64,000 nucleotides of DNA from an uncultured Lachnospiraceae bacterium (GCA_944381375.1 CALWKX010000014.1:62001-126000), one strand, 5' to 3'. Positions 59,537 through 63,856 are shown, numbered from the stretch's first letter. Notes: a model not told the origin generated them from the sequence alone. Translations and numbers: made by a program.

Positions 59537-59614
59537 TTAATCTTTCATTGCGAATCTGATTTTGTAAACTTCCTGCGCTGCTATGGAGCGTGGTAAAAAT
59601 ATATAATAGATAGA

Positions 59615-59649
59615 TTAACAGGCGAAAGCACACTGCTTTCGCCTGTTAA
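59615..59649 (-). terminator. Terminator of the dockerin/cohesin operon
   Basis: A 16-bp perfect stem (59615-59630 with 59634-59649) and a 3-nt loop, 12 nt after the cohesin gene. Confidence 0.85.
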
Positions 59650-59660
59650 CTGATTCTCAA

Positions 59661-61652
59661 TTAAATATTATTTGTTTCATCTGTGTTTTTCGCGTCTGGT
59701 GCGTTTTTATCAAGAAGCTCTTCCAAACCGTCATTTATTTTCTTTTCATTTTCTTCATCAAATATAAATTCCTTTTTATTGCGGCGCTTCTTTTTTTCTT
59801 TAACTTTCTTTTCCTTAGGTTCTTTTGTTTTTTCCGAAGTCGGGGAAGTCTTTGGTTTTCTGATGATGAAACTTGCCGCAAATCCCACAGCGATCAACAC
59901 TATGGCCGATGCAACGATTATCGGAGTTTTTAAAAACATGCCCGAAATGTTTGAATTGCCTTGTATATAATGTGTTTCCGCGCCGTCTATGCTCTTGGGA
60001 GTGATTAAAAAGTCTCCTCCCGTATCTGTTATGAACTCTACGCTGCCGCCCGCTCCTACCTGAACATTTGATGCAAGTTCAATGAATTTATTGTTTTCAG
60101 GATCATATTTGTATACGTTTATATAATTGCCTTCCATTATTGTTGTGTAAGCTGTTAGCGTTATGGGGAATGGAATATCATCTTTATGATGTATTGAAAA
60201 TACATAGCTGTTTTCATCCGATATGTTTTCAAACATGCTGTCCCGGTAAGCGCTTGCCGCATTCATAGTAAAGTCCATATCAGAATATGTTTCAGTTGAG
60301 CTCATGTCTGAACCGTTTATTATAATGCTGCCGATTCTCGTTTTTATAAATATTGAACAATTGCGGTTGTCTTTGAGAGTATTCAGTACATCTGCAGGGA
60401 TTATCTGCAGTTCGGCAGTAGATAAATCTATTATTACAGGGGAGTTGCCTGCTTTGATATTTGCGATTATATCAGATACTGCATTGGAGTCCAAAAGCAG
60501 GGAAGGGCTTGCTTTTCTTATGACCGTAATGCTGTATATTCTTACGCTGTTATCTTCGGCCGTACACATCACGTATTTTAAATTATCTTTACCCGCTATA
60601 AGATCCGATCCGCCGAGTACAGTGCATGTAGCCCATTCGCTGTCCTCAGGCGTCGCCGTGAAAGTTATGCTTGTGACGGAATAATCCACCATAATGACAT
60701 AATTAGTGATTTCGCGGCTGAAAGAAGGGTACATTGTGCCGATGCTAGGCGTTAAAGTCTTCAAATAATTATTATTTGAAGGCGTATAGTTTTCATCCAT
60801 TTCTCTGGTTGCTTTTATTACATACGTTTTCTGTGTGCCGTCCTGCGCTGTGACAATTATACTTACGGCAGTTTCGCTGCCTGCTTTAAGTTTATTGTTG
60901 GACACAGAAAAGCTTGCGTATTGGTTATTAGGCGTAGCGCTGATCGTAAGCTTTGATACCGTTGAGGGTACGTTCATCGTATATTCATAAACAGATGAAG
61001 AAAATGCAGGAGAAAGCGTGCCTTCGCTTACGGAAAGAGCGCTTAAGGTAGCGTCGGAAGATTTCTGAGCAGAAGTTCCTCCTCCTGTGGAAGAACCGCC
61101 TCCTGATGATGATCCGCCTCCGGAAGAAGAGCCTCCTCCTGATGATGATCCGCCTCCAGAAGAAGAACCGCCGCTTGAAGCCATGGTTACAGTAGCTGAA
61201 CAACCGCTGCCCGATATCTCTATTACATCATTACCGGATAACGCTGCACCCGTAACTCCTGATAAAGTAATAGTTGTTTTTTCGCCTGCTTTGAATGATG
61301 AGGTTGCAGTAAAGGTCAGTGTTACAAACGAACCGCTTTTAGTCCCAGACGCGCTGTCCGCTACAATATTGGAACCTACAGTTGCGGTAAAGGATCCTGC
61401 GCCGGAGTATGAAGAAAGAGTTATTTTTGATGAATCATAGCTTAACGCTCCGTGTACGCCCAAAATCGTATAAGAACTTGATAAATAAAACGTAACCGTA
61501 AAGCTTCCTCCGGAGTTTACAGTGGATGGCGCACTCATGCTTGTTGACATATCAGCGGCAAAAATACTTCTTGGTATGAGTGAAAGAACAAGCAAAAGCG
61601 CTATTAATACAAATATTATTTTTATTCCTGTGTTTAATGTTTTTCTTTTCAT
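59661..61652 (-). CDS. Membrane-anchored cohesin protein with cadherin-like domains
   Basis: 663 residues. A signal peptide ends near residue 33 (FAA). A cohesin domain (about 36-165) follows, with MSAPSTVNSGGSFTVTFYLS, GVHGALSYDSSKITL and a closing GSGCSATV strand. Next are a linker of repeated SSGGG units (about 168-200) and two cadherin-like beta-sandwich domains (about 205-290 and 298-385; SPAFSSSVYEYTMNVPS, YPSFSREITNYVIMVD). About 190 residues without a recognised fold precede a membrane helix near 576-596, and the tail is cytoplasmic and Lys/Glu-rich. The helix anchors the protein by its C-terminus. It lies 15 nt behind a dockerin-bearing hydrolase gene, its probable ligand. RBS AAGGAC. 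Confidence 0.85.
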   Translation of the reverse strand: MKRKTLNTGIKIIFVLIALLLVLSLIPRSIFAADMSTSMSAPSTVNSGGSFTVTFYLSSSYTILGVHGALSYDSSKITLSSYSGAGSFTATVGSNIVADSASGTKSGSFVTLTFTATSSFKAGEKTTITLSGVTGAALSGNDVIEISGSGCSATVTMASSGGSSSGGGSSSGGGSSSGGGSSSGGGSSTGGGTSAQKSSDATLSALSVSEGTLSPAFSSSVYEYTMNVPSTVSKLTISATPNNQYASFSVSNNKLKAGSETAVSIIVTAQDGTQKTYVIKATREMDENYTPSNNNYLKTLTPSIGTMYPSFSREITNYVIMVDYSVTSITFTATPEDSEWATCTVLGGSDLIAGKDNLKYVMCTAEDNSVRIYSITVIRKASPSLLLDSNAVSDIIANIKAGNSPVIIDLSTAELQIIPADVLNTLKDNRNCSIFIKTRIGSIIINGSDMSSTETYSDMDFTMNAASAYRDSMFENISDENSYVFSIHHKDDIPFPITLTAYTTIMEGNYINVYKYDPENNKFIELASNVQVGAGGSVEFITDTGGDFLITPKSIDGAETHYIQGNSNISGMFLKTPIIVASAIVLIAVGFAASFIIRKPKTSPTSEKTKEPKEKKVKEKKKRRNKKEFIFDEENEKKINDGLEELLDKNAPDAKNTDETNNI
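61085..61172. repeat. Coding repeat encoding the SSGGG linker
   Basis: Tandem 15-nt (alternating to 30-nt) units encode at least five SSGGG/SSSGGG blocks of the cohesin protein linker. The unit is a source of length variation by slippage. Confidence 0.75.
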
Positions 61653-61667
61653 GTTTATGTCCTTATT

Positions 61668-63659
61668 TTATAGGCCGGCAAGGTTTCTTCTGAAAATTAC
61701 CAAATCGCTTATAGTTACTTTAGTATCATTATTAATGTCAGATGATAATGTCTGATATGAGCTCAGTGTCGATAATCCTGCTAGATGTCTTCTTAGCAAA
61801 ACCAAATCTGATATTGTCATTGCTCCGTCGCCGTTTATATCTGAAACAACTATTGTTGTATATGTAGATGTGTAATTTCCTGAGCTGTCATAAACTTTGA
61901 AAGTCATTCCTGTTCCTACATTTCCGCTTGCAGTATCAGGCTTTATTGTACCGTTTGAAAAACCGGCGGTAAATGTAGATACAGGCGTATTGAGCGGAAC
62001 GCCGCTTATCGTATCATTCATATGATCTATTGTATAAACAGAGCTTGTCAGCGTATCCGTGCCGGTAGGCGATTCGTATTCTCCGTTAAATATAATGTCA
62101 ATATCGCTTTTTAGTACATATGCTGTGGAAATATCGAAATTATAATCCCACATGTATAAAGCGCGTTTATCCTCGTTTACCGGCATTTCGGATTGTATTA
62201 AATAGAAATCTCCGCTTTCTCCTAAGATTACGACAGGCATGCCTACAGGTTCGTTGCTCACAACGCCGGACGACCTGTTAGGATCTCTTGATGAGTATTT
62301 ATAATACGCCCATGAAGACGTTGAAGGTTCGGAGTAAGCATATGTAACTTTGTTTGTTACGCCTATGGTATATAGGCCATAATCTTTGAATCCCAAATAC
62401 TTATCTATTTCATATGCCATTGCAGCAACTTTTTCTCCATGAAAAGGATCTGAAGCATACTTTACATTTATACCGGTTGCTTTGTTTCCGGGGCTGGATC
62501 CGAAATATCTGGAATCTCCGGAATATCCTGTTATATAACCTGCAGGCTTATCAGGCACATCGTAATAAGCTGTCCCTTTAGATGAATCAATATAAGCGTA
62601 GGCGTCCATATAATACCGGTTCATATACCATTTTGCATGTTGTATTATTCCGTTTTGCGCTCCGGTGTATTCTTCAGCTTGCGAAGGGTCGTAGTCGAAA
62701 GCGCCGACGCCGAAAAAGTTATAGTTTTCTATTGCAAAATCGCTTTTTCCGTAAGAAGATTCATGATTTGCGAAAGCAATTTCCATAAGAGCATTGACGC
62801 CGTATGTATCCTGTGCCTCCAGAAATGTTGAACCCAGACCAAGATATGCGCATGTGCGGCTTGTCCAATATGTAGAATTTTTATAAGCGAGAAAACTATT
62901 GAGTTCGCTTGCCGTATATGTTGTTTGAGTTCTGTAAGATAAATTTTTATAATATATGCAATGAGTGCCTATCGGATTTACTCCGTTTGTCGCATCATAT
63001 GGATCGGTATAATATGTATAACCGTCGGTTGAATAATATCTTACTCCCGTATTCATAAAATCAGGAGCTTTATCTATAATAATTGAACTGAATTCGGTAG
63101 TATTGCTGCTTGAATAGTAGTAGCTTATATAGTGAACGAGATCGCCGCTTGAATTTCTGGTATAATAATCGAATTCGTAACGGTTTGAATTTGCAAGCCC
63201 GTATACGTGATTTGCAGGTATCAAAAGAAGCTGGCTGACTGAACATGTGCCCGTGTAACCGGATATGGTGATGGTGGCCGTAAGATTTGCGTCGGTGCCG
63301 TTGTAGTAAGCCACTAAATTATTTTGACAATAAGCCTGCGTTCCTCCCGGGAATGTTGATGTGAAAATCAATGTGGAAGAAGTAGATCTGGTTATAGCCA
63401 TCCCTTGTTTCATGGCGACAACCTTACCGCTTGCATCATATATGACTAAGGATTTATCACTCATACCCGTAAAGGCCCTGTAGGCGCTGTTGTAGTCGGA
63501 ATAAGTGCTCAAATCAGTATAAGTCATATCGGTGTTCGCTTGAGCAATAGTGTAGGCAGCCGCTGAGACTTTGTTTTGAGGGAAAATAGCGCTTATAATG
63601 CATATTGCGCAGGCAAGAGTAAAAGATATGATTTTCTTTGTCAGTTTTTTATGCTTCAT
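61668..63659 (-). CDS. Secreted glucosaminidase with C-terminal dockerin
   Basis: 663 residues from the ATG at 63659; the frame to 63722 runs through the promoter. A signal peptide (about 1-33) is followed by about 250 residues of unassigned beta-rich sequence. A glucosaminidase (GH73-like) domain (about 290-430) comes next, with YGVNALMEIAFANHESSYGK, NYNFFGVGAFDYDP and VAAMAYEIDKYLG. An SH3-like part precedes a type I dockerin (about 605-663). Its two repeats, DINGDGAMTISDL and DINNDTKVTISDL, carry the calcium ligands D, N, D and D at positions 1, 3, 5 and 12. Both recognition positions read IS. It should cut peptidoglycan while held by the cohesin protein encoded next. Confidence 0.88.
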   Translation of the reverse strand: MKHKKLTKKIISFTLACAICIISAIFPQNKVSAAAYTIAQANTDMTYTDLSTYSDYNSAYRAFTGMSDKSLVIYDASGKVVAMKQGMAITRSTSSTLIFTSTFPGGTQAYCQNNLVAYYNGTDANLTATITISGYTGTCSVSQLLLIPANHVYGLANSNRYEFDYYTRNSSGDLVHYISYYYSSSNTTEFSSIIIDKAPDFMNTGVRYYSTDGYTYYTDPYDATNGVNPIGTHCIYYKNLSYRTQTTYTASELNSFLAYKNSTYWTSRTCAYLGLGSTFLEAQDTYGVNALMEIAFANHESSYGKSDFAIENYNFFGVGAFDYDPSQAEEYTGAQNGIIQHAKWYMNRYYMDAYAYIDSSKGTAYYDVPDKPAGYITGYSGDSRYFGSSPGNKATGINVKYASDPFHGEKVAAMAYEIDKYLGFKDYGLYTIGVTNKVTYAYSEPSTSSWAYYKYSSRDPNRSSGVVSNEPVGMPVVILGESGDFYLIQSEMPVNEDKRALYMWDYNFDISTAYVLKSDIDIIFNGEYESPTGTDTLTSSVYTIDHMNDTISGVPLNTPVSTFTAGFSNGTIKPDTASGNVGTGMTFKVYDSSGNYTSTYTTIVVSDINGDGAMTISDLVLLRRHLAGLSTLSSYQTLSSDINNDTKVTISDLVIFRRNLAGL

Positions 63660-63824: not shown

Positions 63825-63856
63825 AACTAATCAGAATGAAAGGAAAATTACACAAT

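Follow-up and report, generated by a model that had tools for sequence, protein, structure and literature searches.

A cohesin-dockerin gene pair as the probable membrane anchor of a cell wall glucosaminidase in an uncultured Lachnospiraceae bacterium

Introduction

What does a cohesin-dockerin pair do in a bacterium in which the dockerin is attached to a cell wall glucosaminidase and the cohesin to a membrane protein encoded by the adjacent gene? This question is raised by positions 59,661 to 63,659 of a stretch of DNA of 64,000 nucleotides, hereafter called the window, from an uncultured Lachnospiraceae bacterium (GCA_944381375.1 CALWKX010000014.1:62001-126000). The literature that we found treats cohesin-dockerin interactions as part of cellulosomes or of mucin or starch complexes, and no description of a cohesin-dockerin pair tethering a peptidoglycan hydrolase was found in it; the survey of Peer et al. 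2009 may list members. Here, we propose that the two proteins probably form a split, one-to-one surface anchor, which holds a wall hydrolase at the membrane. The main support comes from the anatomy of the two proteins, the pairing of their genes in two bacterial classes, the wall-cutting nature of the cargo, a mirrored recognition code in the dockerins and the co-variation of both domains in Bacilli; we infer the binding, its calcium dependence and the position of the enzyme in the wall. It appears that many gut Firmicutes have reused a coupling familiar from cellulose-digesting machines in order to hold a single wall enzyme at the membrane.

A secreted glucosaminidase and a membrane-anchored cohesin protein

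Both genes are located on the minus strand, with open reading frames running from 63659 to 61668 (gene 1) and from 61652 to 59661 (gene 2), and each of them encodes a protein of 663 amino acids. The product of gene 1 (61668..63659) is, according to its reading frame and its Pfam and PDB matches, a LytB-like glucosaminidase that is secreted and ends in a dockerin. Its signal peptide (approximately residues 1-33, 63561..63659) consists of a basic start, a hydrophobic core and an AxA-type end. The Glucosaminidase catalytic domain (residues 278-418, 62406..62828) matches PF01832 with an E-value of 5.6e-11 and 43.6 bits, the cut-off being 30.2. The closest PDB entries are 7pj3 and 4q2w, each described as 'putative endo-beta-N-acetylglucosaminidase' (E of about 2e-17; 1.9e-17 for 7pj3), which we take to be pneumococcal LytB, and NF052642, the NCBI model for SagB, gave no match to the enzyme. 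Glu300 is invariant across the enzyme alignment and is a candidate for the catalytic acid. The type I dockerin (residues 606-660, 61680..61844) is recognized by PF00404 with 35.3 bits (1.4e-8; curated cut-off 22.9) and is composed of two 22-residue calcium-loop repeats, both of which are legible in the sequence. Each repeat contains TISDLV, that is, the pair Ile10-Ser11 is present twice, and the dockerin is symmetric. A complete type I dockerin with the same recognition pair in both repeats, located on a secreted glucosaminidase, had already been proposed by a sequence-only reading of the window and is confirmed here.

Gene 2 (59661..61652) starts 15 nucleotides 3' of gene 1 and encodes the putative anchor, a single-cohesin membrane protein. 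A signal peptide (approximately residues 1-33, 61554..61652; hydrophobic from residue 8 to 26, followed by IFA-AD) precedes the cohesin domain (approximately residues 34-160, 61173..61553), a Gly/Ser linker (approximately residues 158-198, 61059..61181) and two cadherin-like domains, which are covered by two stretches of a PF12733 match (8.5e-16). The first of these domains comprises residues 203-284 (60801..61046), and the second spans approximately residues 294-381 (60510..60773), with limits taken from the anchor alignment. The protein ends with a transmembrane helix (approximately residues 578-596, 59865..59921; hydropathy of 2.71 over 19 residues) and a charged cytoplasmic tail of 67 residues (residues 597-663, 59664..59864), in which a comparison of tails showed the motif GLEELLDKN to be conserved within the family. 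All of the elements that had been read from the sequence of this gene are present.

The assignment of the cohesin domain draws on several searches. In the window protein itself, PF00963 scores 19.6 bits, which is below the curated cut-off of 24.1, whereas six orthologues (from genomes G003, G009, G019, G015, G016 and G006) exceed it with 27.5-35.8 bits. A profile built from 17 related domains retrieved 24 PDB chains with E-values of up to 1, and almost every one of them is a named or known cohesin (best 2.7e-7); the same search with a single anchor sequence returned glycine-linker noise alone. AlphaFold2 predicts a confident beta-sandwich with a domain pLDDT of about 95-98, and the eight top PDB folds in a fold search with this model are cohesins. 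Since orthologues pass PF00963, the profile retrieves PDB cohesins and the predicted fold is that of a cohesin, the N-terminal domain is taken as a cohesin. The identity predicted by the earlier reading is thus upheld by orthologues, profile and fold, but not by the Pfam score of the window protein.

The intergenic gap of 15 nucleotides contains AAGGA, which resembles a ribosome-binding site, a terminator-like hairpin of 17 pairs was found by a hairpin scan 3' of gene 2 (59614..59650, minus strand), and a divergent neighbouring gene begins upstream of gene 1, near position 63837. The two genes apparently form one transcription unit.

The two genes occur together

To what extent the pair is conserved was assessed in both directions, starting either from the enzyme or from the anchor. 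Among 60 genomes of relatives, anchor and dockerin genes adjoin in G003, G006, G009, G016, G019, G023 and G029; the anchor gene of G015 is interrupted by a contig break, with the dockerin gene beside the part that encodes the N-terminus, and in G011, the two genes are found on separate contigs. A shorter anchor is encoded alongside a SpoIID enzyme in G016, G020 and G024. Ten genomes that bear the pair, including that of the window, contain exactly one dockerin. When public genomes were scanned with the enzyme alignment as query, 80 LytB-like loci were retrieved. An anchor follows all LytB-like enzymes that carry a dockerin and have readable downstream sequence (29/29) and none of those that lack a dockerin (0/53, some of them at contig ends); a Fisher test, for which the counts were entered as 29/0 versus 0/50, gave a p value of 3e-22.

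The reverse search, which started from the anchor, was applied to a Bacilli-type class represented by 296 genomes; a near-complete anchor is present in about 45 of these (approximately 15%). A dockerin gene is located -4 to 18 nucleotides upstream in 29 of the 30 Bacilli-type anchors examined, and an anchor-based search of the window's own class yielded 16 loci with the pair. Altogether, 82 non-redundant pairs were collected from Clostridia and Bacilli, and the dockerin gene is situated at most 35 nucleotides upstream of the anchor gene in nearly all of them. Because it recurs in dozens of genomes, the pairing goes far beyond chance, and this linkage supports the earlier proposal of a one-to-one cohesin-dockerin device for a membrane-held peptidoglycan hydrolase. 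A search of plasmids returned scattered cadherin-like domains alone.

Some cohesin proteins stand apart from a dockerin gene. The orphan anchor L243:845-2095 has none upstream and is preceded directly by a ToxN/AbiQ-like frame. A second single-cohesin membrane protein, encoded beside a divergent ion-channel-like gene, is found at L072:2103-3191, L073:5580-6665 and L080:13111-14202; it has no adjacent dockerin gene and may share a nearby dockerin.

A mirrored recognition code and co-variation of the two domains

The recognition residues were compared in 62 non-redundant dockerins with 10,000 permutations. Identity at positions 10-11 is 0.86 when the repeats within a protein are compared and 0.16 between proteins, and this was reached in 0 of the 10,000 permutations. 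The calcium-loop positions, in contrast, scarcely differ (0.60 within and 0.54 between proteins), which argues against a simple recent duplication. Two pairs encoded in one genome have different codes in G016, G017, G064 and G151.

Co-variation between the dockerin and the N-terminal domain (N-domain) of the anchor was analysed for 53 Bacilli-type pairs. The two domains correlate with r values of 0.66-0.68, which is above the correlation of either domain with the remainder of the protein to which it belongs. The partial correlation amounts to 0.57-0.60, while the control with the rest of the anchor gives 0.08-0.13, and the co-variation persists when the pairs are divided by cargo (LytB-like 0.66, other 0.71). 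At the strictest thinning, the partial correlation drops to 0.34. We consider the co-variation good but method-dependent evidence.

Nearly all cargo cuts peptidoglycan

The proteins that carry the dockerin are LytB-like and SagB-like glucosaminidases, SpoIID-type enzymes, an Amidase_2 enzyme, GH25 muramidases and one S8 protease; nearly all of them cut peptidoglycan, and they belong to several unrelated families. The SagB-like cargo of Bacilli reaches 41-82 bits with NF052642, below its cut-off of 425, and a cargo type that extends from SH3 to the dockerin without a Pfam catalytic domain is likewise a SagB-like glucosaminidase. The subtilisin-family protease encoded at L071:10596-13376, whose gene is followed by that of a window-type anchor, is the only cargo seen without an obvious role as a wall hydrolase.

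The C-termini of homologues without a dockerin bear sortase-like signals, wall-binding repeats (SLH-like or other) or a membrane helix of their own (L146). L082 and L083, which of these homologues are closest to the window enzyme, instead have cadherin-like domains fused to the enzyme. Since these features represent other means of surface retention, a comparison of the sequences suggests that such enzymes can be retained on the cell by several interchangeable means, of which the dockerin-cohesin pair is one. According to another explanation, the anchor would sequester the hydrolase in an inactive state during secretion and then release it, instead of holding it at the membrane for its task; autolysins need control and the adjacency of the genes would balance the protein amounts, but the dockerin lies distal to the catalytic domain, the linker is long and the homologues without a dockerin seem to rely on permanent anchoring, which makes this scenario highly improbable.

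Proposed mechanism and related systems

In the proposed one-to-one anchor, the glucosaminidase and the cohesin protein would both be secreted, and the latter would be fixed in the membrane by its single helix. The dockerin of the enzyme would then dock, in a calcium-dependent manner and one-to-one, into the single cohesin of its partner, which would be presented above the membrane on the linker and the beta-sandwich domains. In this way, the hydrolase would be retained between membrane and wall, near the site of glycan strand synthesis, instead of being lost or bound at the outer wall. The enzyme would most likely trim or release newly made strands, or act in daughter cell separation.

The catalytic region of gene 1 is homologous to that of LytB of Streptococcus pneumoniae. 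Pneumococcal LytB is held by choline-binding repeats, whereas surface retention would here be provided by the dockerin. GH84C/NagJ of Clostridium perfringens is another non-cellulosomal example, and its cohesin (2jh2) is among the best fold matches of the window domain with a TM-score to the target of 0.77; however, the cohesin of NagJ is part of an enzyme that acts on host glycans, while that of the window is part of a membrane anchor. In Staphylococcus aureus, SagB-SpdC frees nascent peptidoglycan strands from their membrane anchor by cutting (PMC12272431). As in our proposal, a glucosaminidase is held and positioned by a membrane partner, and many of the cargo enzymes of Bacilli have sub-threshold matches to the SagB model; here, however, a dockerin-cohesin tether would replace SpdC, and the window enzyme is LytB-like and not a SagB according to the model. 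It is because of the analogy with SagB-SpdC that trimming of nascent strands is proposed, and we regard this role as a possibility of less than even likelihood.

Points against docking and alternative explanations

Several observations weigh against the proposed anchor. Natural fusions of both proteins, obtained by reading through the intervening stop codon, served as input for AlphaFold2; the genes are often in frame. The fusion of the window pair yielded good domains and a pTM of 0.57, which is no more than expected for the cohesin alone, so that the model shows no confident docking of the window cohesin and dockerin. Many of the N-domains of Bacilli are not recognizable as cohesins by sequence, and one that was modelled matched generic Ig-like folds, with cohesins at ranks 15 and 33. 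When all lineages were pooled using pairwise alignments, the co-variation was 0.17 and not above the control of 0.21. Lastly, the action on nascent strands is derived from an analogy. On the other side, the fusion of the Bacilli pair L102 reached a pTM of 0.77 despite its disordered linker, and we infer that dockerin and N-domain were placed against each other, because the larger domain alone would give a pTM of about 0.5. A profile of the Bacilli N-domains matched the cohesin group with 94% probability, and the YDSSK motif is kept in other N-domains of this type. Most Bacilli-type anchors also possess a conserved membrane-proximal domain, which is unnamed in Pfam (approximately residues 210-375 of L102:4148-5518); its repeats read FYIYD..S..KY ... 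GWYSYD..E.TLQRY and are common to the anchors of LytB-like, SagB-like and other cargo.

The sequence-only reading had considered that a signal might be passed to the charged tail. If the anchor were mainly a receptor, docking and undocking of the hydrolase would report the state of the wall via the helix to the cytoplasm. The tails of the window family do end in a shared motif (LEELLDKN, FEEMLDDL or FEALLDEM), which is present in four sequences (0.03 expected upon shuffling), namely in the window (59664-59750) and in the anchors L063, L064 and L065; the remainder of these tails is variable. This motif could bind a cytoplasmic partner. However, in about half of all anchors, the tail comprises only 6-30 residues, mostly basic, and there is a single helix; no signalling domain was seen in the anchors. 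Given the shortness of so many tails, tail signalling is unlikely as a general function, and a receptor as the main role of the anchor is likewise unlikely. In a few Bacilli anchors, the tails contain another recurring motif, for instance YxIFDD, and the tail of the anchor L251:3485-5059 carries a zinc-ribbon-like motif (CPKC..CPYC).

Alternatively, the genes might be co-transcribed although the dockerin has a different binding partner, or the role of the anchor might be adhesion through the capture of proteins of neighbouring cells. The absence of docking in the model of the window fusion would agree with this. Nevertheless, presence and absence of the two genes are coupled in both directions, and the co-variation in the Bacilli set is concentrated on dockerin and N-domain; we therefore consider another partner very unlikely.

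Cohesins and dockerins are cellulosome families, and G010, which belongs to the same family as the window genome, encodes 38 dockerins; the pair could thus be a remnant or a small part of a cellulosome-like multi-enzyme complex. With its 38 dockerins and several cohesins, this close relative possesses a genuine multi-enzyme system. The window genome (assembly of 1.54 Mb, 92.65% complete), in contrast, contains one Dockerin_1 and one cohesin-like match, both at this locus, the dockerin being part of a wall glucosaminidase, and no multi-cohesin scaffoldin was detected in it. Moreover, the pairs recur in many lineages including Bacilli, mostly in genomes with one to three dockerins, and the cargo consists of wall hydrolases. 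A cellulosome in the window genome as assembled was therefore rejected, which agrees with the earlier view that the locus is unrelated to cellulose, and a cellulosomal remnant is hardly credible. The coupling resembles that of cellulosomes and their anchoring scaffoldins, for instance ScaE of Ruminococcus flavefaciens, in its type I-like dockerin on a secreted enzyme, its cohesin on a surface protein and its symmetric recognition residues. It differs in that each genome or operon has a single cohesin and a single dockerin, encoded by adjacent genes, in its membrane helix instead of a sortase signal or SLH repeats, and in enzymes that cut the wall rather than plant polysaccharides. Single-cohesin proteins with a C-terminal membrane helix have been described in Lachnoclostridium sp. 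MSJ-17, where they are called scaffoldins and coexist with up to 39 dockerin proteins (PMC11557425); these share the single cohesin and the helix but are not part of one-to-one hydrolase operons.

With a single dockerin and a single cohesin detected in the genome, a few percent of which is missing from the assembly, no other detected protein would share the anchor, contrary to an earlier suggestion. Sharing is conceivable in at least one relative: G075 (L181:496-1692 and L113:5326-7494) encodes a GH25 muramidase without an anchor of its own, the dockerin code of which is nearly that of a nearby glucosaminidase, and the two enzymes may use the same anchor.

Significance

It may well be that these pairs belong to a general, hitherto undescribed class of cohesin-dockerin operons, which would be one-to-one and insulated from each other and would hold peptidoglycan hydrolases of several unrelated families in single membrane sockets in Firmicutes including Bacilli. 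The mirrored dockerin code is retained even where a single cohesin is present; two-way binding would then have a purpose other than the loading of many enzymes onto a scaffold. The dozens of natural, apparently insulated plug-socket pairs would be of use for the study of the recognition code and for protein engineering. Cohesin-dockerin coupling would have moved from polysaccharide digestion to cell wall making, in the Bacilli-type class as well as in many Clostridia, and the gene pair would allow a genetic approach to the question of how bacteria keep dangerous wall hydrolases restricted to the membrane.

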